A DNA stretch of 64,000 nt from Styela clava. Taxonomy: Eukaryota; Chordata; Ascidiacea; Stolidobranchia; Styelidae. The stretch lies in NCBI RefSeq assembly GCF_964204865.1, contig NC_135255.1:6105135-6169134 (forward strand), given 5' to 3'. This document shows, piece by piece, positions 24,927 to 61,329 of this stretch. Made by a program: the position numbers and the translations under genes. A model generated the notes under the pieces. That model searched no databases. It was not told the origin of the DNA and saw nothing but the letters and a program-made list of their open reading frames with translations. How positions within the stretch are numbered: position 1 is the stretch's first letter; every line of letters begins with the position of its first letter.

Positions 24927-25752
24927 AGTCCATGGGTGGGTGACCGAATTTCAAGGTATCAAAATTTTATCGACCTCAGAGTTGAGTTAGTAAATATTGA
25001 AAAATACAAGGGAATACAAGAGAGAAGTTCAGAAAACGAACTATTGTGGGCTTGGAATGCCATTGCTGAAAATTTCATTACTCACCATGCTTTCATCTAC
25101 ATGTTTGTGATTCTCTGTTCTCAGCTATGAGTTTTATTACATAAGTCTCTTAATAGGCGTAGCCTGACTGATGAAAATATCCATTCGTGTATTTCTCTGT
25201 CGGTTAAACAATATAAACCTTACGAAAATCCAGTGGCGGCGCGTCAATAGGGCAATTGTTTTTTCGGTTTAATAAAAAATATTCGAAAAATACTTCAATA
25301 TCGGTTGCACAGACTGTCTACACTAGCCATATTCTCCCGACATGGTTCATTTTTCGCTCGCAAAGCCTTCGCCGAACGTCGACGGGGCGACGCCGATTTT
25401 TCCCCGGTTGCTCATTGTATATCGTATTCTCTCTTTTATCTTCCACTCGCCGCGTTTGTCTCGTTTGTTTTCTGTTTCTTTTACTAAATCATCGGGGCCG
25501 ATCGGGGCTAGCCCCGAAATTATGACGACACAATGCCGACGTTTCTTACAACAACGTGTTGACATATACACGCATTCCTTCTCGTTCGTTGGTTGCTTGA
25601 AGAGTTGATAGTTTCCTCGTCTTCGTTTTTGTCGCTTGTTTCGCTATTTGAATCAGTTATAGACCTTTAGTCCATTTGCTTTCGATTTTCCACATTCCTT
25701 TTGAGCTCCTCACTTTTTTCCGGCTTCGCGTTTCTTAGCCTTAGACCTCATA

Positions 25753-28700
25753 ATGAATAAGGTTTATGCACTACTTCGCACTCCGTTTTCGCAGCTGCCG
25801 CTGGAACAAAAATTAGAGGTACAACGTCTTGGGCCTTATCAACCAAAAAATTGTTCACTGGAACAATCCCATGACGGAGGAAAGCGTCGGCGTACATTCT
25901 GCGCAGAAACTTGGTATAAAAAACCCGAATGGTTGTGTTACAGCGAGGACAAAAATGCACTTTTTTGTTTTTATTGCCTACTTTTTGCTACCGCCCGTGA
26001 CTCACGTTGGTGTAAATTTAGTTTTAGAGATCTTAAACATCTTTCCGAGCGTGCCAGGGATCATCAATCTTCTATGGAGCATCTGGACAATGCATTAAAA
26101 TACCGAACATTCGGAAATGTTAATATTGCAGCACAGTTGGATGAAGGACGCGCGGTTTCTATTCGTCGGCACAACCAAAACGTCGAGAAAAACCGCCATG
26201 TTCTCGGTCGATTGATAGATGTTTTGAAGTTTATTGGTTGTCACGAGCTGTCCCTCCGTGGGCACGATGAACGGGCTGGCTCTTCTAATAGAGGGGTATT
26301 TTTGGATATGGTGGAATACACCGCATCCCCAGATACAGTATTGAGAGATCATCTTGATGCCGCAACTGTTTCGAAAGGGACATCTAAGGATATCCAAAAT
26401 GATTTGCTCGACTCAATGTATAAAATTTATTTACAACATTTGGCTCTGGAAATTGAGAATTGCCAGTTCCTTTCGATTCAGTCTGACGAGACAACTGACA
26501 TCACGTGCGTTTCCCAACTGGCTGTGATTTTTCGGTTTGTGAAAGATGGTAAACCTACCGAGAGATTTCACAGCTTTGTACCAATCGTTGATCGCACGGC
26601 TTGCGGGATATCGGCTGTACTGAAAGAAGTGTTACAGCCTTACAACGCGAAGTCAAAATTGATAGCTCAAACTTATGACGGCGCGGCAGTCATGAGTGGG
26701 TCGAAACATGGTGTTCAAGTTTATATAAAAGAAGATTTTCCTCATGCGCATTTTTACATTGTTGTGCACACCAATTTAACCTCGCTATTAAAAATATGTG
26801 TCTTGATACCCCTCTCGTCCGTATATTTTTTGCAAATGTTTCGGGGTTTCCTTCATTTTTTTCCGTTTCGCCGAAGCGCTTTGACCTCCTTCGCCAGATA
26901 TGTAGCCGCCGTCTCCCAGCTTGTGCACCAACACGTTGGAACTTCCAATCACGCGTGGTGCAGGGCGTGTCCGAAATTAGGTCTGAGCTCATTGAGTGTT
27001 TCAATAGCATTCAGAGCTCTCCGGTTTGGGACGAACGCTCTGTGAGGGAGGCGGCAGGTCTAAAGCGTCTGCTAGATTGCTAGAAGATGGTGAGTTTTCA
27101 TTTTTTCTCGCTTTTTTCTCCACAATATTCTATCACGTGGATGTATTATACGGCGCATTGCAGTCAAGGCTAATGGATGGAGCGTCTGTGCAGTCGTGTA
27201 TTTCAGACTTCTGCGATGCTGCATCTCGTATCCGGGAAACAATAAAATACGACGACACATGGAGTGCTTCTTTACGCCGCGGGCAAACAACGCAGCGTTT
27301 GATTTTGTCTACAAAGGAATGCTGTGACATTCTGGTGAATCAAATAGGCCATAGGTTCTCAAAGTGCTCCGTACGGAGCCCCAGGGCTCCGCGAGAGGAA
27401 CCCAAGGGCTCCGCGAGCTATTCGATTACTTTTCAAAATACTGGCTAATTTTGTAACTGTTCAAAGAAGCAAGAACAGCTTTGATAAAATTTGACAATAA
27501 TATAGCCTTGAAATATGGTAAAGATGCGGAATTAAAAATGACGTTATTTATGAGCTGGAGCGCAGTCAGGATTCATTAGCAATTGAAAAAAAACGGATAA
27601 CGAGATTTCTGTTGCGTAAAATATTCATTGCATGACCGATGCGAGTATTTCAAGTGTCTTGTCGTAATAATTTAATTCTGCTCATCTTTACTCACGTTTC
27701 ATTCGAAATTACTATTAGGATTGCTAAAGGGAAAGAATACTATTCTAAAATAACATAAAATACGTGATAAACTGCCAACTATGAATAAATTGGAGTTGTA
27801 TTTTTGCCATTTGTCAAACTTGATTTGTTTTTTTGCACTCGAGATTATTTTTAAGCAAGATAAGATCGCTGTTTGAAAAATCACAAGATCTGGGCAAAAT
27901 ACGAATGATTGAAATTTATTTTATTGCATGCGGCTCCGTTGGTAGTTTCAGAATGAAAAAAGGTACACCATGCGTACAATTGACTGTGTTTCAATTTCGC
28001 AGTTACTACGATGAATAACCAATAAAAAACTAACAAAACATCAAATTTTGTGATTTACAATGCCTATAAAAGCATTTTTAATCTGACGTGAGTCTGCTGA
28101 AACCAAACTTATAGTGTAATTTTCCATTTCAAGTTTTAATATTTTAGAATGCCGTTTTTCAATCAAGAAATTTGAGCTGCGGATTTACCTCTTTAATAAT
28201 TATTATTTTTAGCATTTCGTCGCAGATGACTATAATACGGTAACATGTTTTTCACATTGAACTCATAATTCCCCACGAGAACAAATAAGCAATTATCGTC
28301 GTCATTGTAGAACAATACATGTATATATATGCCGAAGGAAATTTTTGATTTAGGGAGAATAAACACTGACGTGAAGATGTTTAAAAACACGCCATGCTGA
28401 CGAAAACAATCGGCGATTGTAACAAAATGCAATCGCGCACATTATTAGTGGCCTTTCAAGTCCTCCGAAAATGTCAAAAAGTAAAAGATTCGACCACCCA
28501 ATTTATTAATATGTTTGTCAAGTGTCAAATTTACAGCTTTAGTATATTTAATTTATTTTTGAAATTGACATTTATATATGACTTGTATTAAACCTATTAA
28601 AAAAGTTTAGCATTTAAGTTAGGTAAAGTACGTTTAACTTACTCAGGAATATTAATCGGAAAGTAACAATTTAAACATTTATTTTTGGGCTCCGTGAATG

Positions 28701-29256
28701 ATAGTCAACTTTTCAAGGGCTCCGCAACACCAAAAGTTTGAGAACCCCTGAAATAGGCGATCGTCTGCGCGCTGAACACCTTGCCGCGTTCTCTTTGATG
28801 AACCCCAAAATTTTTTCAAAATTTGCACGTCAATTTCCCATCCATTTGTTGGCTACTGTCTCCAAATTTTACCCCATGATAAACGTGGGTAAATTGGAAA
28901 ATGAATTGCGATGTATATACACCAATCAAACTTTTTTGAACATCACATCAACTTGCGCGCTCTATGGGTTCCTCATAGATAACACTCTAGTAACTACCTT
29001 TGCGGCGTCTGCAAAATTTCTGGACATCATTTTGACGACGCCTATTTCTTCCGCCGACGCAGAGCGAACATTCAGCACGCTGAAGCGTATTAAAACGTAT
29101 CTCAGAAACACAATGAAGCAAGATAGATTAAATTCCTTGGCTGTTTTATCCATTCACAGAGACGTTATTTCTGGGATGCATGACTTTAATCAGCGCGTTA
29201 TTGAGCATTTTGCTTCCAAGAAACCGCGGCGTGTTGCATATATGTTCAAGCAGTAG
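25753..29256 (+). pseudogene. hAT transposase, TTF-zinc-finger/ZMYM type, disrupted
   Basis: The product would cut and paste hAT DNA. The N-terminal part shows a TTF-type zinc-binding region (WLCYSEDKNALFCFYC), then the catalytic region with LSIQSDETTD, then HCCAHQFNL in a second frame, and at the far end the hAT dimerisation motif SSADAERTFSTLKRIK. Three breaks are visible. One is a frame shift at the T-run 26751-26755, where one base appears missing. Another is a shift near 27065-27085 next to a TAG. The third is the insertion of a 1401-bp element plus 8-bp duplication after 27349. The coding frame before the insertion matches the frame after it once 1409 bp are discounted, so the insertion entered a readable frame. 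An upstream exon is possible but not seen. Not functional as it stands. Confidence 0.9.
27350..28750. mobile_element. Second hAT element nested in the transposase
   Basis: The flanks AAATAGGC at 27342-27349 and 28751-28758 are identical. The ends CATAGGTTCTCAAA and the complement of TTTGAGAACCCCTG are inverted repeats. The subterminal regions repeat GGGCTCCG motifs at both ends. No transposase is seen, so it is non-autonomous. Confidence 0.92.
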
Positions 29257-31650: not shown

Positions 31651-33096
31651 TTATCTCATTCCTAGCAGATGCCTGTTTTTGATATTGTTTTCATATCTCA
31701 TATTTGCCTGGTTTTGTAATCTCAAATCTCGAAGTTTATGTCTGTAATCTCCAAGATGTTTATCACTTATTGGTCCAACTCCGCTGAGTTTTCGGTATCT
31801 ATAATCATCATGATATCCAGGATTATTTTCTTTTGACTCCATTGCAAAGTGAACTTGTTTCTTGCTTGGTAAAATACCAAGGCGTTCATATTTTTCGTGC
31901 AATGCTTCTGTTGACAATCCAGCTCTTGATAAAAGATCTTGTTTTTCAGCTTTCATCTCTCTGTATTGCTTGATAAGTGTTTCTGCATTTGTCATTTTTT
32001 CTTCTGCCATTCTTTCTCTCTCTTCAAGAAGTTTTTCTCTCCTTTTCAGCTCTCTCTCTTTTTTCTCAATTTCTCTCAAACGTAATTCAAGCCCTTCTTC
32101 TTTTGTTTTACCTTCAGGTTCTGGTGATTCTCTCTTCTCACTTTCACTACTATCACTAGATGATGATGACTTTCTTCTTTCCATTTTCTTATCCTCTATA
32201 ACCTCTATTCCTACTTGAGGTTTTAATGCAGCTGGGCTAACTGGAGGTGTGAGCCCACATTTTTCCAGAGTATCTTGCAGTAAATCCATTTTCAAGATTT
32301 CATCAATGGTTGGTCTTCTTGCTGCAGAAGTTTTTAGCATCAGTGAAATGCAGTCTTGCAATTCATCACTATATTTAGATGGTATACGACGGAATTTACC
32401 CTCCTTGATTTTAACAGCTAATAACCTTTGATTCGCTGCAGTGAAAGGAGGCAAAAGTGCACAAAGCTCGTAAATTAAACATCCAAGTGACCAAATATCA
32501 GATTTTTCATTATAAGACAATTTATTCATCTGTTCTGGTGACATATAATACGGCGTTCCAACGAAAGTTTTTGCGAAACTTGTGTCGTGGTTCAGCACTC
32601 GTGCCAGACCGAAATCTCCAAGTTTCACATCATTAGATGAATCTAAAAATACATTGGCTGGTTTCAAATCACGATGAAGAATTTTTCCTTGGCCTAACTT
32701 CTTTCTTTGACTGTGACATTCCTGTAATGCAAGTACAAGTTGAGCAAAAACCCTCAAAATAAAGTTCTCCTCCATGAATGATCGTTCCTTCCGCTTCTTC
32801 GATATTATACTTGCCAGATCTCCACCGCTACAGTATTCCATAACAAGATACAGGCGACTACTGGTTCTGTCAATAATTCGATCGTAATATCTCACTATGT
32901 ATTTGTGTTTTAATTCTCTCAGAAGATTGACCTCTGACACCAACTGCTGTTTTTCCGGCTCTGTCATAGAACCATAATCCATTTCCTTCCAAACCAGTGT
33001 CTTTCCATCACTTTTCCGTCTGATTTTCAGACATTTTCCATATGAACCAGAACCGATGGTATATAGAATATCGTAATCGCATAACTTGGATGGCAT
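31651..33096 (-). CDS. NEK2: Serine/threonine kinase NEK2, intronless
   Basis: NEK2 is a centrosomal NIMA-family kinase that drives centrosome separation at mitotic entry. The 481-residue frame is uninterrupted. Kinase landmarks are the glycine loop GSGSYG, the catalytic lysine in VWKEMDYG, HRDLKPAN, DFGLARVL and GTPYYMSPEQM. A charged coiled coil follows at about residues 325-380. A KEN box lies at residues 422-424 (ESKENNPG), and the protein ends in LLGMR. In human NEK2A the KEN box and the C-terminal Met-Arg tail direct degradation by the APC/C, so cell-cycle destruction is probably conserved. Human NEK2 is 445 residues and multi-exonic. The intact frame and tail argue against a dead retrocopy. 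A good acceptor-like site lies 44 bases upstream of the ATG. Next gene upstream on the same strand is PPP2R3C, 982 bp away. Confidence 0.95.
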   Translation of the reverse strand: MPSKLCDYDILYTIGSGSYGKCLKIRRKSDGKTLVWKEMDYGSMTEPEKQQLVSEVNLLRELKHKYIVRYYDRIIDRTSSRLYLVMEYCSGGDLASIISKKRKERSFMEENFILRVFAQLVLALQECHSQRKKLGQGKILHRDLKPANVFLDSSNDVKLGDFGLARVLNHDTSFAKTFVGTPYYMSPEQMNKLSYNEKSDIWSLGCLIYELCALLPPFTAANQRLLAVKIKEGKFRRIPSKYSDELQDCISLMLKTSAARRPTIDEILKMDLLQDTLEKCGLTPPVSPAALKPQVGIEVIEDKKMERRKSSSSSDSSESEKRESPEPEGKTKEEGLELRLREIEKKERELKRREKLLEERERMAEEKMTNAETLIKQYREMKAEKQDLLSRAGLSTEALHEKYERLGILPSKKQVHFAMESKENNPGYHDDYRYRKLSGVGPISDKHLGDYRHKLRDLRLQNQANMRYENNIKNRHLLGMR

Positions 33097-33139
33097 TTTG
33101 TTGATGGAGTTAACAACTAATGTAGGGTAATGTTACAAC

Positions 33140-34078: not shown

Positions 34079-35428
34079 TCAGACATCGTCATCTGCTGCA
34101 GAATCTACAACAAGAACTTCTCTGTTTTCATAGGTCCAGAATCCATTAAGATCAATCAAGATATTTGTTACAGTTTCACCTTGGCCACTGCTGATTAAAT
34201 CTTGCAATGTTATTTTCAATGGGTCGTTAGGTTTCACCATATCAAAAATTTCATCTTTCACATCAGCAAATGATACTGGGTCCTGTCCATGCAATTTCAT
34301 CATTTCCTGAATAGCTCTGAAGAAGTAATTTAAAGAAAATACATTCAGATACGCTCTGTTTTGTACATCAAGTAATTTGAATAGATATTGTAGCGCAGCA
34401 GGTTCTTTTCTATTTTCCATAGCAAGAACAAAATCGAGATAAGTTTTATAATCCATTTCACCGTCGTATGTTAAACACTCTTGAAAGACTCGATCAAGAA
34501 ACACTTTAGTTAATGTCCCTGTTCCATATCTCGCCAGCTCTTCTTTGCTTAACATTCCGTTATGATCTTTATCAAGATTCAAATATTGTCCATAAACACG
34601 TAAAGCGGAAGGTGCAGAAAACCAGTTAGATTCTTGAACTTCTTTCGATAATTCTTCATCTCTGAGTTCTAATAAATCATCTAGAAATCCACAAGCAAGT
34701 ATATCCTGAATTTTAATTCTACCCGTTCTCATCGGGTCCAGGAAGAAAAAAAATTTTCGAACCCCTGTACAGACGTAAAATGAATAGAATGATCTCTCAA
34801 GCCCATCAAGTTGAGGTAGAGTAGGAATGAGTTCTAGTATGTAATTCTCCAAATCTGCTTCTCTCAAATATCCTTGTCCGGCCACATCATATAAACTTAA
34901 ACCAATTCTTGTTTGATGAAGCCACACTTTTCTCATAACATAATTAAAAAATTGTAAAATTGAAATTCTTCCCATATAATCTTTTTGATTTAACTTTGAA
35001 AAAATTATCGCTGTAAAAAATTGTTTGCATTTCTCTCCTGCTTTCTTCCCAACTTCCAGAAAATCTTCATAATTGATCATTTGTTCTTCATTTGTAGTAG
35101 GGGGTGTATGATGTTTATCAAGAAGATACCAAAGATTCTGTAACTCATCATTATCAAGCAATTCTCTGCTTCTTCGTTGAAGAAAAACAGCTCTGGATTC
35201 TTCTCTTAATTTTTGCAATAAAATTTCATCCTCAGCAGGAAGCCTGTAATAAAATCGTGGAATGGTTTTGTATGTTTCACATTTGCTGGTTGAACTGCCT
35301 CTCCATTTTGTATATAATTCAGTAAATTGATTCAACTCTTTTGCTGTTTTTTCCTCTTCTGTTTCAGCCGAAGTACTTGATGTAGCTTGTGACTGCAAAG
35401 CATTTTTCAATTTGGATTTCCAGTCCAT
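34079..35428 (-). CDS. PPP2R3C: Protein phosphatase 2A regulatory subunit B'' gamma, intronless
   Basis: This is the calcium-binding B'' gamma (G5PR) regulatory subunit of PP2A. The product has 449 residues, against 453 in human, and is very close to vertebrate PPP2R3C along its whole length. Landmarks are TIPRFYYRLPAEDE, QFFNYVMRKVWLHQTRIGLS and FFFFLDPMRTG. It also has a canonical EF-hand loop, DKDHNGMLSKEE, and a C-terminal DLNGFWTYENRE. The ATG at 35428 begins MDWK as in human; the frame remains open upstream only to a TTG at 35443, which I do not use. The gene has no introns here. A strong acceptor-like site lies 92 bases upstream. NEK2 follows on the same strand. Confidence 0.97.
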   Translation of the reverse strand: MDWKSKLKNALQSQATSSTSAETEEEKTAKELNQFTELYTKWRGSSTSKCETYKTIPRFYYRLPAEDEILLQKLREESRAVFLQRRSRELLDNDELQNLWYLLDKHHTPPTTNEEQMINYEDFLEVGKKAGEKCKQFFTAIIFSKLNQKDYMGRISILQFFNYVMRKVWLHQTRIGLSLYDVAGQGYLREADLENYILELIPTLPQLDGLERSFYSFYVCTGVRKFFFFLDPMRTGRIKIQDILACGFLDDLLELRDEELSKEVQESNWFSAPSALRVYGQYLNLDKDHNGMLSKEELARYGTGTLTKVFLDRVFQECLTYDGEMDYKTYLDFVLAMENRKEPAALQYLFKLLDVQNRAYLNVFSLNYFFRAIQEMMKLHGQDPVSFADVKDEIFDMVKPNDPLKITLQDLISSGQGETVTNILIDLNGFWTYENREVLVVDSAADDDV

Positions 35429-35519
35429 GTCACTTTTTTTCAAATCCTTCCCAGAATATGTATGTATACAGGTAATTAAATAATGGAACAGACTTTTCCA
35501 CTATCAAACTATAGGTTAC

Positions 35520-38858: not shown

Positions 38859-41320
38859 ATGCCTGGACACATTACAAAACGTAAAATAAAGTACACGAAG
38901 GAAAATTTGAAAAAAGCTTTAAAAGCCATTACTGAAAAAAAAATGTCTCATCGCGAAGCAGCAGAGCGTTACGGAATCCCCAAATCTACTTTGACCGATC
39001 GTATAACAGGTATGTATATTTTTTTTATTACAAATCATTCCAATTTATCATAGTAACGGCGTCATATCTTACATTTTCAAGGAAAAAGGTCATTGGATGT
39101 AATGCCTAAACGTGGGCCCCCCACTGCTTTATCATCCGAAGAGGAAGAGTCGCTGAAAACATTTTTGAAGGACATGGCCAAGCGTGGACTCGGGATGGGC
39201 AAGAGAGACGTGAGACATATCCTAATCTACACCAAATCTGAGTGATAGCATTTTTTCAAATAATTACCTTTTTTCAGGTGCTTCAAACGGTAAAAAACAT
39301 GCTAGATTTGTCGGGAAAGCGTGTGCGGTATTTCAGGAATAATCTCCCAAGTGACTCCTGGTGGTGCGGATTCTTGTCGCGGAACCCGGACCTGAAAACC
39401 ATGACAACGGAAAAATTGGAGGTGGCGCGAGCCATGGCTTGTTCGGAAAAAAAGGTGAGCAGTTGGATGGAAAAGTACACGGCAATGTTAGAGGAAAACA
39501 ACATCACGAACGGAAGTAGTATATACAACTGCGACGAAACCGGATTTTCTTTTCAAACGAAAGCCGGTAAAAAAGTCGTGGCTGGCAGGGGGATGAAAAC
39601 CTGCTATAACATCACCAGCAGCAATAAAACTCAAATCACGGTGCTGATTTGCATCAGCGCCAGCGGTAACATCCTTCCGCCCTACATACTTTTCCCCGGC
39701 AAGCGTATGAATCCGTCTCATGCACTGGATTTTCCCGATGGCAGCAGATGTCATGTGACTGATAAGGGCTGGATGACTAAAGATTCATTCTATGACTGGA
39801 TGGAACAACTATTCATACCTAATTTACCTAACAAGTCAACAAGGGGGGCCGTCGTACTTCTTCTTGATGGTCACACGTCCCACAAAGATTTTCGCACAAG
39901 CACGTTAGCCCGAGAAAATAATATCATTCTCTACTGTTTGCCTGCCCACACTACACATATTCTGCAGCCACTGGACAAAGGATTTTATGGCCCTTTCAAA
40001 GGAAATTGGAGTCGCTGTTGTGATTCTTTTTTTGGAAAAGAGCAGTGTGTGGTTGATAAGTACACCTTTGGTCGAGTTTTTACCCAGGCGTACTTACGAA
40101 CCTCACGCTTGGATGTGATAGTAAATTCATTTAAATCATGTGGCGTCTGGCCTCCAAATATTGGAGCTGTGGATTTGGAAAAAGCATTACCGTCCACCAT
40201 ATTTGTTGACGATGAACCATCAATGTCAAAATCCCCAAAGCCCTCGGCCCACGCTAATTCTCAACAACAGATATGGGAAGCGAATGGCTCTGCGATTACT
40301 GACGTAGAACCTGTCTTCGATAATCTCGACATGGCCCCAATGTCGCTTGCTGACCCAAAGTTTATTGAAGGTGGAAATATAGAATTCCCGACTAAAAGCA
40401 TGTTGGCGTCGAATGAACTAGATCATGATGTGTCGTACTTGGATTTACTTTTATTTGACGACGAACAGCCTGAAGACGCACTTATCACTTTGAATATGTC
40501 TGATATATTGGATGACCAGCCATCTACATCTCGATCACCCGATCCTGGTTGTAATACAACAGATGTTGTTGAGCTAAATCTAAATGATCAGAGTACAAGT
40601 GCTTTAGCATCCCCGGCTTCCAAAATGTACGAGAGTCTGTCACCAATTGATTCTAAGGGCAGGAGAGCTTTAGAGGCGTTGGAAAGGGGTATGAATAGAG
40701 ATGAAAAGACACTGTTTGAAAAGAAGTTAGAGTGTGGAGACATAGAAGGCAGTGGGGTATATATCGCATGGAGACACCTGAAGTTGGAGACTTTGAAAGA
40801 ACTAGAAAATAGAAAAAGAGAAATAAGAAGTTTTTGTGTTAATACGGATTCGACAAATTTGGCTAGAAAAGAGTTGTTTAAAATACCAGAAAAGAAAAGG
40901 CCCGTGAAAAATTACAAAAATATGCCACTATATAATTTGTCATCTGATCGAGCTGTAACGGAGTTGAAAGATTCAATCGAGAAAAAAAGGCTAGCTGAGG
41001 AACAAAAAAGGAAAAGGGCAGACAGAAAAGAGATAAGCAAAATTCAAAGATCAGAAAAACAGAAAAATATGAGTTTAGAGAAGGTCAAACCTCTGAAAAG
41101 GAGACGAAATTTGTCTATAAAACAAAAAGAAAAAAAGAAGGAAGATTGCAATGTATGTAAGGTGCAGTTCAATGGTGGGCCTGATGAACCACGCTGGATT
41201 GCGTGCGATCAGTGCGATAAGTGGTTCCATCTGCACTGCACAGAGCTGAATCCGCATTTAAGCGCATCAGCAGTAGAGGGACTTCGTTGGTTTTGCTGCA
41301 AATGTATTTCTGCCATATAG
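38859..41320 (+). CDS. Pogo-like DDE transposase with C-terminal PHD finger
   Basis: Exons 38859-39009, 39082-39209 and 39278-41320 join in frame to 773 residues with no break. An N-terminal psq/CENP-B-like helix-turn-helix (SHREAAERYGIPKSTLTDRI) should bind the element's ends. The DDE domain shows YNCDETGF, LLLDGHTSH and ILQPLDKGFYGPFK, with 35 residues between the second and third aspartates. A lysine-rich region follows. The C-terminus is a PHD-type zinc finger beginning CNVCKVQF, then CDQCDKWFHLHC and a final FCCKC. A PHD finger usually reads histone tails; its role in a transposase is not established here. AATAAA lies at 41346-41351. An acceptor-like TTTTTTCCGTACAG sits 19 bases before the ATG. 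Confidence 0.9.
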
Positions 41321-44611: not shown

Positions 44612-47600
44612 TTAAATCTTGACAAAAAACTTGATCTTGTAGCAATAGTAAGCTATGATGACCCAGTAGGCAGTTCCCAGCATATTCATTGCGAGTAATT
44701 CAGCATGAGTTGACGTAGAACCAGCACCCCAACTAAATGGAAGATATCCCGTAAACACCTCATGTCCGACATATATGAAGATACTATTCATTCCTGCAAA
44801 AATTCAAAAAAGTTTGAAAGTCATACTTAGACAGAGAACTATTTTTTAATCGGAAGGTGAATATAAGGCGATGTACAACTCGGAAAATATAGAAAAATCA
44901 ATTGAATAGCCTTTTACTGACTTGATGTAGTAAAAATTTGAAATTGAATAATCTGGTAGTTGTTCAGACTCACTTTGTGTTTCATAAGTATAATGAAACA
45001 CCTAAACTGTATATGTTTGTATTACTCACCAACAAAATAGAATGGAGCACCAGTCCACAATTTTTTGATATCAATAATGTAATACATCGTAGGTAGTATG
45101 AAGAATGCAAAACATGAAAGAGTTGTCACAAATGATGTAGACCTAAAAATACAAAAAGCAATCCTCCAAATTACAAAATAAACTAAATCTGGTGAAAAAT
45201 AAAAATTCATGACCAATTACTGAAATCAAAACAAACAATTTTATATGGATTAATTAAACTTCCAAAGAGAAATTTTGAGATTACGTACTTATGACACTTT
45301 GTTGGAGTAAAACTGCAACTTTGCAGCAAAAATGAAGATTTATGCTAAATTTTATTGATAAAAATCAAGACTTTTATCATGATTTTATAGATCACCAACA
45401 AATTAATCAAAAGTATTTAAATTTGAAATGATCACCTATATGATGTAAAATATAAAACTACCTCAAAACATCCCTCTTTGCGAAGTGAATTATTAAAATA
45501 TCTACTTCAGAATTTGGTCCAAGTTTGGATCTGATGATTTAGTTCAAAGTAGTAAATTTACCAGAAAGTTAAGAATGAATATCTAAATCGCCTTTGTTAA
45601 TATTTATCCAACACAGTGGTTTCGATGCTGTGCATTTTAATTTCAAGTGTGTAGCAAAATATCATTTTATAAACATTATTTCCCATGTTTCCACATTTAG
45701 ACTTGATATATAATGATTTGAGTACAGGAATGAACAGTCAACTATATTTACCATAAATTTTTATTTACTGGAATCCAACCGTCATACTGAGAAAATTTAG
45801 TCAGGACTGCAGATATAACACCAAGAAGTAATGACCAACAATACCATCGGATAATTCTCTGTTTTGGTTCCTTGTAGTACAAATAGATCTTACCAGCCTG
45901 TTTTAAATAATCTTGTGTTAAATTTTTTCGTTACTATCCAATACTGTTGAAAAAATCATATAAAATACACACAATATAAGATACGACCAAATAAGTTGGA
46001 AAAAAGCTCAAATTTTTAGATGTTTTACAATAAAAAATGTATCAAATCTACTGTTTTTTCAAATAAATTGAATACTGTATCATTATGGACATAAACAAAG
46101 TGTTGGAATTAAACAATTAATTTTTTGGCTGTAAAGTACATTTATGAATCGCTTTGCAAAATTGCTGTTTCAAAATTTCCCAACACAGGGAAAGTCGCTG
46201 GAATGCTTACCTAAATATCTGTTCATATTTTAAATGAATCTTATGGCTATTGCTGAATTTTGCTATCTTTTATAAGTACTGAGTACACCTTCATATGACT
46301 TCGGTATGTTTGTTTATGACATTCAGTTATCTACTTCAACATTGGATTATTATTTGCTAAAATAACGGTGCCAACAATTTTGGCCTACCATGTAAATATA
46401 AATTTGAGCATTTCTCTCTTGATATATAAATACCATAAATTTAACAAGGATACCTCATCTCTTTACCCTTTCGGATTTACGATTCTACATATTTATCCCC
46501 GGGGAGAGGAAAGAAATGGCGAATTGATGGTATGGCTGATTAGTCCTTGGGATTAGTTAGCCAGCCCTTCTCCGATACACCGATATATCGGGCCGATATT
46601 GCGTGTTTGCCGATATATCATATCGGCCCAATCGGTCGATATATCTGGCCGATATATATCAGCGTTAGTCGCTTTTCCACGTTCTAAAAAAGAGTATTTT
46701 TCCCCGGGGAGAGGAAAGAAATGGCGAATTGATGGTATGGCTGATTAGTCCTTGGGATTAGTTAGCCAGCCCTTCTCAGAAGCATGATCTTGATGGTGGA
46801 GGAAGACGTAACCAACCAGCGATAACATGAACCACCTTACAGCAGCGAGGAGTCCAGCAATCTAATTATCACCAACAAGATTCAAACATGCAAACCCACG
46901 AAGGGTAATCAGAGGTGTGGTGGAGAGCGTAATCCTAACGCTTAGCATGATGTGCCACACCATTGAGCAAAAATACATTTTCTCCCAGTTATACCAGTTT
47001 AATACAGTTAGGTAGTATTCAGATTATGGGTTACTTGGGTAAGCAATGATGGAAACCTACCTGCAATCCTAAAAATACTATCAAGATGCTGTGAATTGAT
47101 CCAAGAAGTCCTTCTGGGTCAAAAGGAATAGTTTCATCAAAATCAGGGGGGAAATACACTTTCTGAAATAAAATAAGCAATGAATTTTTTTTTGATAAAA
47201 CACTGAGTGATATGTAACGATGGAAATTTTCATTTGAAACGTCTTTTAACAACTTCAACAATGCCGACCTAATTATTTTGCCTTCTGGATGAGGTGGAGG
47301 TCATGAAATTTAAACCCAATGTGTAATTTGCGATGTCAAGGCTGTTAAATTAGACGCTTTCTATACTAAGCGCTCAAGCTGCACTAAAACTTTGATAATC
47401 CATGAAAAACTAAGTTAATAGAAAATGAGGGAGTATATGGTATGTACATATGCTCCTTAGAAAAAAGCATTGAAGTCTGACATGAAAATGCATTTTTTTT
47501 CGTTCAAAATGCGACTGTTTAAATATCAATCGTGATTTTAAACAATGTGAAAAAAAGTTAGCATTGTCGGAGAATTCATAAAAGTGGCAAAAACAAAAAG

Positions 47601-50600: not shown

Positions 50601-53600
50601 ATACGATATTTCTTCCCAATTTGAAGATAGTTAACGATGATATGATGATATACTAAATAGAATCAGATTCGGAAATATTCGAATCGGAACTTTGTGATTC
50701 GAAATTCGATTCAAAAAAATTTATATTCGAAACTTACATCCCTAGCTTTGATACTAATTATACAATACTCACTGTGATTGCAGTCACAAAACGAAAACAA
50801 AAGTGTAATACAAAATCGCTCCATACTACCGGTAATACTTAATACAATTAAAATTTGCACAGACAAAAACAATTGCATTCCCCAAAAAGCATCCTAAAGT
50901 CGCGACCTCATAACGAAGAACTAAAAACAATTTAATTTCGGAATTCAAACAATGTACCAAAATTTTCTAAAATATTGTTATCAAACAAATAAAACTTTGG
51001 TGATATACAAAAAAATATTTCGATGAGTGTCTCGTCTCTCTGAACAAGACTTCTTTGGGCAGCAGCACAGTTCCAAGACACCACCTCATTAAAAGATTTC
51101 CGGGCGACTAGAAATTTCAAGTTTAACATGCACCAACTAAATTGGTGGCATAGAATGGTAACTGGTTCAACCAAGAATCAAACCCAAGACCTTTAAACAG
51201 TGATGCTAGCTAAGTGTTCAGCAAAAACATTTACAACCAGGACTGGGAAGCCAATGAAAATTTACACCAGGCTCTGACTCCACAACTACTAGCTAACAAA
51301 AATTAAAAGAAATTTGAACTCTGACCCCAGCTGCAAAAGAAAATATTTTAAAAAAAAACTTTGGCCTTTTCACTTACTGTTATGGTTGATGATACACAAG
51401 CCAAGAAAGAATAAAATCGCAGTTCTTCTCAAGATCTTATAAGCAATTTCCCATTTTGGTGTTGCTTTTCTTTCTAAACTATCAATCGACAACACAATAT
51501 TTATCCCCATAATAAACATGAACCATGGAAACACCAGATCAGCAACAGTTAATCCTGAAAAAGTATAAATGAAATAGGTCAATATTCAATAAAATTATAT
51601 ATAGAAAAATGAATGAGAAGAGAGAATGTAAGAGAAAACGGTATAGAACTAATCATCGTTATGGCGCTCCAGAAATAGCCTACTGGTATATATGGAGCTA
51701 ACTAAATTTGTTCGCCTATTTTACATCAAGTTGTGTAAAGGGACTGAAACCTATGGGCAGAGGGTATATTTACTTGGCTAACACAGACAGTCCCCGAACT
51801 CGTAATAGAACAAAATGAGGAAAATCGGAATAAAATTATGGCCTAATCCTAACCTGGTACACACACTACAGGAGAACAACAATGCATCATAGACTAATAA
51901 AATTAAATATTTATAAGATACTTGATGAATATCCTTTATAGTGAAAATAAATCTAAAATAGGTTCAAAAATTGTTTCATTTGGTCATCGGTTAATAGCTT
52001 ATAATAAGAGCTTATCATATTATTTTATTCTGTCTGTGTGGAATTAAATTGCTCTCTAAGATTGAGAATCAGTAAGAACTCATTCAGCGAATTCACCAGC
52101 AAAGATTTTAAGTGAGATTCATAAATATAAAAGATTAATTTTGCTTCTTTCGAGTTATCACTATAGAATCAACATTTTCACAACGCTGAAAGAGGCTGAA
52201 AAATTCACAAGAGAATCATTAGTTACAACTTACAAGAGCTACCAGAATATCAAATTTAATCGAATTTGATTGATATTTTAATAGAATCAACCTTGGGCCA
52301 CTGAAGGCTACAAAAAATTATTTGTTAAGTTGTAACATTGCCACAGTGTGCATAAAGCAAATATCGCAAACTGCATACCAACAAAAACATTGTTTGATTA
52401 TTGAATAGTTTTAATTAAAGTTTATTGTAGAATTTATACTATCAAATAATCATGTAATATTCAATCATATCACATGCATTTTTTGACTTTTTGAAATGAA
52501 TAAATAAATAAGGCAAATATCCAAATATTGGTATTAGAGAATTCTTTCATAAATTTGAAAACATTTAACAATCACATTATTAATCTATAGAATTATATAT
52601 GGCAAATTTGTAACGTACACAATAGCAAAAATTGTTATACAGTTATATAGAATATAAGTGTTTAAATTAATTTTTTTTGCGTTTTAAATCAATTTTCATG
52701 TGTCCGGCAAGTGAATTAACATCATTGAATAATTTTCATACCAAATAAAAATATTCAAAATACATTTTTCAATATAAAAAAGGTATCTCAACAAATGATA
52801 ATTTTTCGAAGAAATACAATCAATAGAACCCACATGATTCTGGGTTTAAAAAACGGATTGCACAAAAAATCATTCTGAATAATTAATTTATTCAAATTTT
52901 CGAATCAAATTTATTGAATCATATGCATGGCACACACTGGTTTACCATTCCAAGCAACATGGGCGAAAAACCAATAAGAGCCTCCTCCATAGTTGACAAA
53001 TATCATGATCACGATACACATTCTAAAGTATATGAAGACTCAGTTAATAAATATAAAAGTATCAGTGGACGTACCATGCCATGGTGAATGATGAAAGAAC
53101 CAATACCATCCACCTTTATAATTGACAAATACCATGATCACAATGCAGATGCTGTAAAAATCATATTATATAAAAAATATTTCTTTGTTATGTTTCAGTA
53201 GGCTAGTTCGCCATAGAAGATTTCATGTCATAAATTTGATCGTCTGTGTACTAAAATATTTAATCAAACAGTTAAAAAGTTAAAAATATTTCATCTCGGT
53301 ATATAAGTGTGAGCATCTGCCAGCCTAGTTTGAAATGCAAAAGCAAATATAGCACATAAATAACATTTTCAAGATAATTTGTTAAATGCATGGTTATGTG
53401 TACTCACTCAGAAGTAAAAGAAAGGTAATGGGCGACCTCTGAAATATCAAGATGAATTTTTCGAACAGTTTGTTGAGAGGTTACAAGTCATGTATTGATG
53501 TACAATCACTAGAGCTTGGAATGTTAATCGGTAAACCATTTTTAGATGGTAAATGGTTACGACTTATTTTATTTAATCGTTAACTGACATCTCGGCTACA

Positions 53601-56600
53601 AATCACCTTTATACTGTATAATTTCTTCAAAAATGATTAGTCCATCGCAAATATATCTGCTGTGGCGTTGAATTGAAAAAAAGTCCCACTAACTGTATTT
53701 GTGAGAACCCAAAAATTAAAAAAAACAAAGCTTTGGAACCATTTGGACATCTCAAATTAAAGCTTATTACGTCAAACATCACACTGCGTTTATTTGGTTA
53801 TTCAGTTAATTCACCCGATTAACTGTTAATAAAGTTATTTCCCTTGAATTCTCAGCTATAATAATCACTTCACAACTCTAATAATAACTAAACCTATCCA
53901 CTTTTGACAGAGATAGTATTTAAAACGTAAAAATATTTTTCAATCATAAATTTGTTGAATAATTGAAAAACATAATAACTCACCCTCTGAAAGAATCTAC
54001 GGACTTCATACGTTCTCTGGCAGGCCTTGGTTCTGGAACCATGGTTTCATCCATTGTGGTAGTACTTCCAAGATCCTAAAATATATTGTAATATTCATAA
54101 AAAATTCTGCCATGAAACATCTCAATAATGTACATAAATAATAATTCACTGGATGAAAAATCCACCAATAAACAACCACCCCAGTGATGAAGATGCAATA
54201 ATTATTCTTGATTGCTGAAATGATTAATTACAAAGATTTGTTTACATGAGATATACTTTTATGGAACAGCAAAACCTGGCTATCAGTAAAGGTGCACATT
54301 GCCAAGTTCACATGTGACTACAGTCAAGATACTTTTTTCATCATTAAGTAAATAGCCTACTTAATAAAAAGCATTTGGTTCTTCTATGAGTACGGAATGA
54401 CCAAGCCATTTGGAAGATATCCGAGAACATAACTTTTGTGCAAATGATCCTGGATTACTAAAACTTTTGTGTGCAATCATACACAAACAGGAGTTAAATA
54501 AATTTTCTACATTTTCATAGAATTAAGAAATTTATGAGTTCTGTTTTTGGATCAGCCTGTATATTGGGGAAAACTCTCTATCTATCAACCTATTTTTTAC
54601 TTCAGTCACGTTTATTATTCGATTTTCAAGAGCATGGCTTTTGTCTGTATTTCTAAGGAAAACACAACATAATTTAGTATGTTCAAATTGTACATTTTTA
54701 TTACAAGTCATGATCATATTATTATAATTATAAACATTGTATCAAAACAGACAATATCGGATAACTTGTCTGAATGTCTTTAATTCAACTCAGTGTTGAC
54801 TAAATAGACTAAACAGAGTAAAATGAATTTAAAAAAAAGCAGCGTAAGTTTATGTGAAATTTGACATTATACAACAATAGAAAAATTACCCTTCTTAGAA
54901 ATACTAAAACAATTCAAAAATCATGAGTATGCCAATCATGTTCAAGCATGGCGAAACTTTTATGCTCACATTGTAATTTTCTGCAGAGAAAGAAGTAATA
55001 ACAGTTTCTTTCAATGTTTTAAGACGAACATCCTTTGAAAAAAATGATGAAGATTGCAAATGACTATTGCACGATGGCTTTTTCATAATACGTACGATCA
55101 CATATTTATAAAGTTTTAGGAAAATTTGACTTAACAGTGGCCTGGAGTATAGAATGTTGGGCAAAGTTGACATTGCAAATTAAAGACGTGCCTCAAGTGC
55201 CTTAAATAAAAAACATAAACAACAACAAAAATTTACACCTATATTTGAGATGTTCTATAAATTTAAAAAAATAGAAATTTGTGGCATAGGATACCCATAC
55301 ATGCATACTTACTGAATTGATAAATCTGTCCACTGATTCAGATCTATTCAACAATCTTCGACTATAAAATGTATCAACAATGGAGTATACAATTGCAAGG
55401 CCAAGAAGAATGCAAAATGCCACAAGGATAGCTGGGAATATAAAAACATAGAATTATAATTAGATGTAACATTATTATAAAAATATTGAGAGATTTCAAT
55501 GGATTCTTGTGTAGTAGCTGCTTTTATGGTGGCGAACCTATGGTTTGACTTTGCTATATTGTGGCTGTTGTTGTTCTCATTAGAGCTGTGAAAAAATCAC
55601 TTTTCTCCGCGACCAATGGACCAATCCAATTCAAATTTCAAGTTCTTGAAGATGGACAAAATCGCTAAAAGGCTGTTTTTTTATTATTTTTCTAAATATA
55701 CCCAAATTTTGTTGGTTTTATATATCATGGGCACACCTTTATATGACATTCGGTATTTTTCTTTCAACATTAGGCCGGAATTTTGCTGACGCAGACAAAG
55801 AGCAACTACTAATTAGTGACATTTTTGAAGCAGAGAATAAAAAAGAAAACTAAAAAAAAATCAGAAATTATTATAAAATACCAACTAAAAACTCAACTTC
55901 AAAAATTTGAATTTAACCTAAAACAAAACGTAAAAACTTGAAACTAAGAAATTAGTTACCAAGATTCATAAATTGCACGATCTTGCGAGTAAAAAAACAA
56001 ATAAAAAACAGATACTTACGTAAGTATGAGTTCCATGGTTTTGTGACAACTGTAATTCCATTGGATGAACAACTTGCATTGGTTGTTGTATCTCGTATTT
56101 CTATTTGCCAGGTATATTCCCCTCTCTCACCAAAATGATATGATACATTCTCGCTATGAAAATAATACAAACAATGAGAAACATAGATTATTAATAATCA
56201 CCAGCACATGAAGGACCTTTTTAATGCGCATTTACCTTGAACGTTTCTAGTTAATTAAGCACCGCAGGCATTTATACAGCGCGCGCCACTTTTGTAGCGG
56301 TAGCTTAGCTTGGGGACACATACACGGAAAATCCATACTTCATTACAACAATCCCTCTAATAAAATAAAAAATTTTGGCAATCACCTTATATTTAGCTAA
56401 CAACAGCGAGAGAAAAGAAAGAACATTGGGTGTATCTTATCTTAGAAAAGTGAAAAGTAAGTTCAGATCATTGATTCTTAACAGTGCCTTATAAAACTGT
56501 GTTCCCTTTTTCAATAATAGTCTGGTCTAGACTGAAAAGGGTGAAAAACACTATACAAATGATCCAGTACCTGCACGATATGTTAGATTTACTGAGGTTG

Positions 56601-60037: not shown

Positions 60038-60718
60038 TCATGAAGACTCCTTCGCAAGACCTTCATATAGTTGTAATGATAGTGTAGCAATCACGGACGT
60101 AAATACAGCTCTCAACAACAGTGAAACCCATGGTGAAAAACCTGCTGCAATAGAAATAACTTCAACAATAAAATTCCGGAACACAGACATGGTGAGAAGA
60201 GCTGTGACAACAGGTACAAGGTTCTTGTTTAGGTCCGTACGTAAATATGCCCATACAAGGGCCGAAACTGCCATAACATGAACGAGAGTGATGTTAGCAT
60301 CGAGTGACATTCTCATGAATTTCCAATCAAATTCTAAGCCTCTCGCTCCGACCCAGAAAGGAATTAGATTGGTGAAAACGACTTCTGCACCTGACCATCC
60401 CATTCCAGCGATTAGTACTTTCAATTCGGGTTTTCCAATGGTTCGATTGATGATGAAATAAATTCCGACAAGATCAATAAAATCAACGAGAGTTTTTAAA
60501 AATTCTGCCATCACATTAAAATCGCTTCCCGTATTTTCCATAGTAGGAAAGAACGTAGCAAGTAACATCATTTTTCCAAGTTGAGTCACCATATAAATAA
60601 ATCCAGCGAAAACGACACGGCTTAGAGCATTATACTCTGATAAAATAGACGTCTTATAGGCAACAACGTATGGTGCATAAGCCAGAGCCATACAATTGAG
60701 AAAGTGAACGAAAGTCAT
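60038..60718 (-). CDS. TMEM147: Transmembrane protein 147, intronless
   Basis: TMEM147 is a multi-pass ER membrane protein of the Nicalin-NOMO (BOS) complex that assists multipass translocon function. The 226-residue product, against 224 in human, aligns along its length: NCMALAYAPYVVAYK, ATFFPT, GMGWSGAEVV, PFWVGARGLEFDWKFM and SLDANITLVH. Seven or so hydrophobic segments are visible. The ATG at 60718 matches the vertebrate start. The frame is open 29 codons further, but a strong splice acceptor (TTTCTAGATTATTTACAG) falls in that stretch, so the longer form is unlikely. HGSNAT lies downstream on the same strand, 1.9 kb away. Confidence 0.95.
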   Translation of the reverse strand: MTFVHFLNCMALAYAPYVVAYKTSILSEYNALSRVVFAGFIYMVTQLGKMMLLATFFPTMENTGSDFNVMAEFLKTLVDFIDLVGIYFIINRTIGKPELKVLIAGMGWSGAEVVFTNLIPFWVGARGLEFDWKFMRMSLDANITLVHVMAVSALVWAYLRTDLNKNLVPVVTALLTMSVFRNFIVEVISIAAGFSPWVSLLLRAVFTSVIATLSLQLYEGLAKESS

Positions 60719-60742
60719 GTTCAATTTGAGCTTTGCTGAAAC

Positions 60743-60745
60743 CTG
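60743..60745 (-). other. Splice acceptor 24 bases upstream of the TMEM147 start
   Basis: The minus strand reads CTTTCTTTCTAGATTATTTACAG before base 60742. This is a good pyrimidine tract and CAG with no upstream coding exon, so it is either a 5' UTR intron or a trans-splice site. Confidence 0.6.
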
Positions 60746-60805
60746 TAAATAATCTAGAAAGAAAGAAAAAAACAGAATTGCTTGAAATGAAATAGATGAC
60801 AACAT

Positions 60806-61329
60806 AATGTAAATAAATAAAGTTTGGACGCAGTAGCCATCATCTCTACTACGAAAATCGGAATCACATTACAAAATATATCTCAATAAAAATGAAATCA
60901 TGAAAAATAGGTATATTGAAATAAGTATTGAAGGTGTATATTTCTAGGTGATGTGTTAACAAACGAAAGCCAAATCACTATCTCACTCCAAAAACGAAAC
61001 TATTTGGCAGTGATGGAATGTCTTCAAGTAGCAGACTTGCCATACAATTCATGTGAAAGACGGACGGTTGGTGCCTGATGAAAAAAAAATGATGTGAATA
61101 CATTTCAAATTTATTCACTTATAATCATATATTTTGATTTACACACATTTCAAAGAGAACATAGTAAATTCTTCTCAACTCTCAGCACCAAAAAGCGAAA
61201 AATAAAAAAATGAATATAGGAACGAAACATTGTGATCTCCATAAGATATTCGAATTATTAGGTAGCAAAAATATTCTATTTTATTTGAATTGATAAAATA
61301 GTTGAATATGATGAAAGTGATCTGATTAT

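Follow-up and report, generated by a model that had tools for sequence, protein, structure and literature searches.

Two tandem, probably mutually exclusive exons across the catalytic site of HGSNAT in the tunicate Styela clava

Mutually exclusive duplicated exons are already known, and the closest described counterparts of the pair reported here come from enzymes, namely, an oyster alternative oxidase, OGDH, and the kinase KHK. In the oyster Crassostrea virginica, tandem duplication of exon 10 of the alternative oxidase gene has produced two exons that are used alternatively and encode variants of equal size, the first being changed around key functional sites and the second more conserved (PMC5589949). 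The choice there falls on the last exon (10 of 10) and has been shown on mRNA (PMC5589949). OGDH, a vertebrate metabolic enzyme, carries mutually exclusive exons 4a and 4b whose switch concerns calcium sensitivity and whose branch points have been mapped experimentally to distances of 25–41 nt (PMC7969005). In human KHK, which belongs to another enzyme family and for which a solved structure is cited, the alternative segment contains the catalytic Arg108, kept in both isoforms (PMC9741552).

HGSNAT is a lysosomal enzyme of heparan-sulfate breakdown that is affected in mucopolysaccharidosis IIIC. As described for the human enzyme, Asn258 binds the acetyl group of acetyl-CoA and His269 is catalytic and paired with an Asp (PMC11199644, PMC11357348), while luminal loop 1 (LL1) sits at the luminal entrance and touches the luminal domain (PMC11357348). 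The solved human chains (PDB 8vkj, 8jkv, 8tu9) display one version of this segment, whereas the HGSNAT gene of Styela clava, with the same Asn, His, and Asp, holds two. Like the oyster exons, the two arose by tandem duplication in an invertebrate enzyme; unlike them, they are internal, are known from the genome alone, and stand equally far from the human sequence. They share with OGDH the setting of a metabolic enzyme, though not the calcium switch, and with KHK the retention of the catalytic residue, here a His, in both forms. Our search of the open-licence literature on HGSNAT and mutually exclusive exons returned no report of an alternative active-site exon pair in this gene, open-licence papers on Ciona yielded no report of HGSNAT, and HGSNAT goes unnamed in the main text of a survey of human mutually exclusive exons (PMC5740500). 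Within the literature searched, the HGSNAT pair is new and unusually placed, lying as it does across the catalytic site.

The gene occupies the minus strand of the window, by which we mean the whole 64,000-nucleotide stretch of DNA analyzed (contig NC_135255.1, positions 6,105,135 to 6,169,134). Its luminal-domain exons appear among the open frames at about 58–55 kb of the window, and its 3′ end, a stop codon, lies at 44612. A common upstream exon (53984..54075) ends in SVDSFR and then GG, the first two letters of the codon that A or B completes. Exon A, the first of the pair in the transcript, occupies 53075..53151 (acceptor TTTTTACAG, donor ATG/GTACGT), and exon B, the second, occupies 52946..53022 (acceptor TACTTTAG, donor ATG/GTAAAC); each encodes 27 residues including its split codons, and a gap of only 52 nt (53023..53074) separates them. 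The common downstream exon (51378..51554) supplies the Asp equivalent to human D307 (D279), the partner of the catalytic His. The remaining exons, on the same strand, are 49814–49680, 48653–48518, 47900–47774, 47162–47061, 45897–45752, 45142–45030, and 44793–44612, the last ending in the stop. With either A or B, the gene reads as a single open frame of 428 aa from 54075 to the stop at 44612, and a purpose-written spliced aligner gives the two isoforms all other exons in common.

The identity of the gene is clear from comparison with human HGSNAT: in the PDB, nothing but its chains, one a GFP fusion, matches at an E value of 0.001 or lower. Against the human protein, phmmer returns E values of 3.9e-30 for the fragment with A and 1.2e-31 for the fragment with B (107 and 112 bits, respectively), and Pfam DUF5009 is matched at 34.5 bits with A and 30.6 bits with B, above a cut-off of 25. 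An earlier note on this DNA had described an HGSNAT gene with two tandem 77-nt exons of equal phase, each with its own AG and GT ends and each joining in frame to 54075–53984 and 51554–51378, and had held that including both or neither breaks the frame; sequence, coordinates, and translation bear out this description throughout.

The window contains several other features. Just downstream of HGSNAT on the plus strand, a 692-aa open frame (39242–41320) combines a DDE_1 endonuclease domain with a PHD finger at the C-terminus, and is one that we take to be Tigger/pogo-like. Open-frame pieces at 25705–29256, also on the plus strand, appear to form a broken element, presumably hAT-like, with DUF4371 at 25705–27042 and further pieces at 27008 and 28705. 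Long unbroken frames on the minus strand encode a protein kinase (31651–33132), an EF-hand protein (34079–35500), and a DUF2053 protein (60038–60868), which we assume to be NEK-like, PPP2R3C-like, and TMEM147, respectively. An Rfam scan of the window found nothing at gathering score.

The phase of the paired exons constrains how they can be combined. Each is 77 nt long and relies on the upstream exon for two bases of its first codon and on the downstream exon for two bases of its last. Joining A to B brings a stop codon within six codons of the junction, as does skipping both exons. A composite exon of A, the 52-nt gap, and B has an in-frame length of 206 nt, and is ruled out by a TGA inside the gap. 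Given stops in all of these arrangements, A alone and B alone are the only combinations predicted to yield enzyme.

That A and B are related to each other is evident from a search of the 376.6-Mb genome (379 contigs) with the A peptide, which matched B at E = 1.6e-6 and thus precludes chance resemblance; no further match, and so no third copy of the exon, was found in the genome at E up to 10. The two DNA sequences are 72% identical across 82 nt, comprising the exon plus two and three flanking bases. Beyond them, identity between the flanking sequences amounts to 13 of 40 positions and 19 of 50, roughly the level that we would expect of AT-rich sequences with no common origin; as far as this alignment can tell, the homology is confined to about the exon and stops at its ends. 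An assembly artefact derived from two haplotypes is ruled out by the 72% identity together with the unrelated flanks. A second HGSNAT gene as the source of an exon is likewise ruled out, as a genome search with the 428-aa isoform found no second copy: all 11 matches fall inside the HGSNAT gene itself. The same genome carries, on contig C9, a cellulose-synthase-like GT2 exon (PF13632, PF03552) about 1.8 kb upstream of a GH6 exon (PF01341) on the same strand; cellulose synthase is reported from every tunicate genome sequenced and as missing from the rest of the metazoan genomes surveyed (PMC6523144), which makes a tunicate host very probable. Searches of the assembly for mitochondrial COX1 and for an exact spliced-leader pattern of the Ciona type both came back empty.

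At the protein level, 19 of the 27 residues are the same in A and B; human HGSNAT shares 16 of the 27 with A and likewise 16 with B, so that neither is simply the old copy or the novel one. A and B specify the same residue in 18 codons, 8 of which differ silently. By the NG86 method dN is 0.21 and dS is not computable, the silent sites being saturated. The dN/dS comparison of the two exons that the earlier note had called for rejects omega = 1 in a codon model of 26 codons (2ΔlnL 14.1); the best omega is 0.06, a poorly bounded value, given that the fit at omega = 0.2 is poorer by just 1.1 lnL units. Saturated silent sites combined with limited amino-acid change argue that both copies are kept by purifying selection, to the extent that 26 codons can speak to it.

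Where the two exons differ is as informative as how much. Together with its two split codons, the exon corresponds to human residues 248–274 (short numbering, set from N258; in short/long numbering the key residues are Asn258/286, His269/297, and Asp279/307). The note's view that the exons encode versions of the same membrane segment holds for N258, which lies in TM2 of the human structures, and needs amending for the remainder, as the exon continues through H269 of luminal loop 1. Its further points, that both exons keep the counterparts of N258 and catalytic H269 and that the surroundings of the active site differ, agree with the alignment, the latter at the level of sequence. Asn258/286 and His269/297 are present in both exons and Asp279/307 in the common downstream exon, and we therefore expect both forms to be capable of catalysis. 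Y264, W265, F267, and W272 are also common to A and B. Over the first 11 positions only two differ, both conservatively, compared with six of the next 16, most of them radical: 260 K/G, 263 W/S, 268 H/A, 270 S/V, 271 P/A, and 273 H/N (A/B). The changes thus cluster in luminal loop 1, where A gains the basic residues Lys260, His268, and His273 and B has only the catalytic His. Within the exon-encoded stretch fall the reported mucopolysaccharidosis IIIC mutations G262R and N273K (G290R and N301K in long numbering); G262 is retained in both exons, and position 273 is His in A.

Bacterial relatives offer a measure of what the loop can accommodate. Among 11 such sequences (10 of 23 plasmid matches plus one further locus), four have WHG and two have Pro at 271, as in A, and none has the Lys260 of A. 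Taken with the DUF5009 and human scores of both forms, the bacterial WHG and Pro271 place most of the changes in A within the apparent tolerance of the family. At two of the plasmid loci (L029, L030), the bacterial HGSNAT-like gene and the gene upstream of it overlap by several bases; the latter is annotated as alpha-N-acetylglucosaminidase, which catalyses the step following that of HGSNAT in heparan breakdown.

A key question for any mutually exclusive pair is what prevents the two exons from being joined, and here the 52-nt gap, short for an intron in the words of the earlier note, is central. Spliced alignment of 19 myosin loci, related copies of one gene family, provided 234 distinct introns, none of which is 52 nt or shorter. 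Two are no longer than 60 nt (56 nt in L017 and 59 nt in L020), both doubtful on account of weak donors and low-scoring alignments, and 97 measure 61–99 nt. The 100 introns shorter than 200 nt, look-alikes merged, peak in density near 80 nt and, with the two doubtful ones set aside, begin at 69 nt; the gap is thus to be compared with a shortest well-supported intron of 69 nt. Several still shorter candidates were discarded. Two 41-nt introns from a first pass of 36, in the near-identical paralogues L010 and L012, had alignment scores below zero and were absent with a new query; the same query removed a 33-nt intron from each of eight loci (L005–L012), that of L008 being in frame, free of stops, and taken as coding, and a 44-nt intron from L015.

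The myosin loci are themselves diverse. One (L004, C6:13082844–13084853) is an intronless single-frame myosin head with a 1032-aa open frame, possibly a retrocopy. L005–L012 (C16 12.60–12.71 Mb; C13 8.46 Mb) are compact genes, seven of them clustered on C16, with many very uniform introns of about 70–95 nt, and L016–L023 have mostly long introns.

Branch-point and splice-site features of the pair were compared with the same introns. The best branch-point candidate in the gap, a TTAAC identified by motif only, lies 30 nt after the A donor and 21 nt before the B acceptor; other, weaker matches lie 12, 20, 26, and 41 nt from the donor. A steric limit of about 50 nt between donor and branch point has been described (PMC5740500, PMC7969005), and the motif-based 30 nt falls within the experimentally mapped OGDH range. 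A gap shorter than the surveyed introns and a branch-point match so near the A donor together favor steric mutual exclusion. When the short myosin introns were scanned in a similar way, a candidate was found in 49 of 97, three of these 49 being at most 35 nt from the donor, which makes the branch-point argument on its own weaker than that from length. A splice-site model based on 206 of the 234 introns, with those under 60 nt and those of loci L019–L022 set aside, ranks the A acceptor at the 88th and the A donor at the 56th percentile, strong to average, and the B acceptor and donor at the 22nd and 17th, weak and still within range. This disparity suggests that A may be the default form and B the regulated one. 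Local RNA folding around the exons is ordinary (z 0.08 over 301 nt), which speaks against strong local structure as the exclusion device.

We consider it likely that tandem exon duplication has given this gene two interchangeable catalytic exons, of which each mature HGSNAT mRNA carries one, a splicing choice that we infer from sequence. By this account, the exon would have been duplicated long enough ago to saturate its silent sites, leaving A and B as interchangeable sources of the last part of TM2 and the greater part of luminal loop 1. Cells would choose between them, the 52-nt gap would be too short to splice, so that A would never be joined to B owing to steric hindrance, and nonsense-mediated decay would clear any mRNAs containing both exons or neither. 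In this way the gene probably has the means to produce two forms of the enzyme whose active-site entrances differ. We would expect the forms to differ in acceptor use, through the way the luminal mouth binds heparan sulfate at its glucosamine end, or else in pH response or in how this mouth touches the luminal domain.

The retention of two such exons might alternatively reflect history, in that just one is used now and the other was silenced recently, its intact look being inherited from a functional past. The weak splice sites of B would fit such a course, and recent silencing would leave an identical signal of selection. Against it, neither frame is broken, the four splice dinucleotides are all in place, the Asn and the His persist in both exons, and letting one copy evolve neutrally worsens the fit of the codon model, relative to constraint on both, by 3.2 lnL units if A is the free copy and by 3.6 if B is. 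Decay was also simulated in 20,000 runs, scoring those that kept the frame, the splice dinucleotides, at least 18 of 26 identities, and both key residues. At 0.33 substitutions per site, the level estimated by the one-copy-neutral model and equal to about one per codon, such an exon survives in 0.3% of runs starting from B and 0.2% from A; at 0.5 per site the figures are 0 and 0.005%, and at 0.15 they rise to 14% and 12%, so the force of the argument depends on the duplication being old. The codon models, the simulation, and the confinement of homology to the exon rule out exon A as plain debris, and we regard silencing of a once functional copy as quite improbable.

A different possibility is that the pair regulates quantity: mRNAs that include or skip both exons would carry a stop and so serve to reduce the amount of HGSNAT made, the difference in protein being secondary. 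The early stops in both arrangements are in keeping with this, but the double form would require an intron shorter than all 234 surveyed, and the scheme requires no protein-level selection on both copies, yet the pair bears its signature; we give it very little credence. It is also conceivable, if rather unlikely in our estimation, that the gap can be spliced after all, or that exclusion depends on a regulator or RNA pairing as opposed to steric hindrance, with the two isoforms still real. Such an arrangement is compatible with interchangeable catalytic exons in everything except the steric step. Splicing of very short introns does occur in some animals, and our intron survey spans one gene family; on the other side are the ordinary local folding and the position of the TTAAC, the most convincing branch-point match, whose 30 nt to the donor fall short of the published limit of about 50 nt (PMC7969005, PMC5740500).

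An exon pair that takes in both the catalytic His and the Asn binding acetyl-CoA is unusual. A tentative extension is that tunicates possess a switchable HGSNAT, in which the basic, His-rich mouth of A and the neutral mouth of B are tuned to different acceptors or to different compartment acidity. As one speculative example of such tuning, one form might suit ordinary lysosomes and the other the heparin-storing granules in blood cells and oocyte accessory cells of ascidians. Heparan sulfate or heparin of unusual structure has been reported in tunicate granules (PMC6627333). A natural second version of the loop, with His at position 273, provides a ready-made test of which loop positions govern activity, pH response, and the choice of acceptor. 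For tunicates, the exon pair hints at a regulated breakdown of heparan sulfate.
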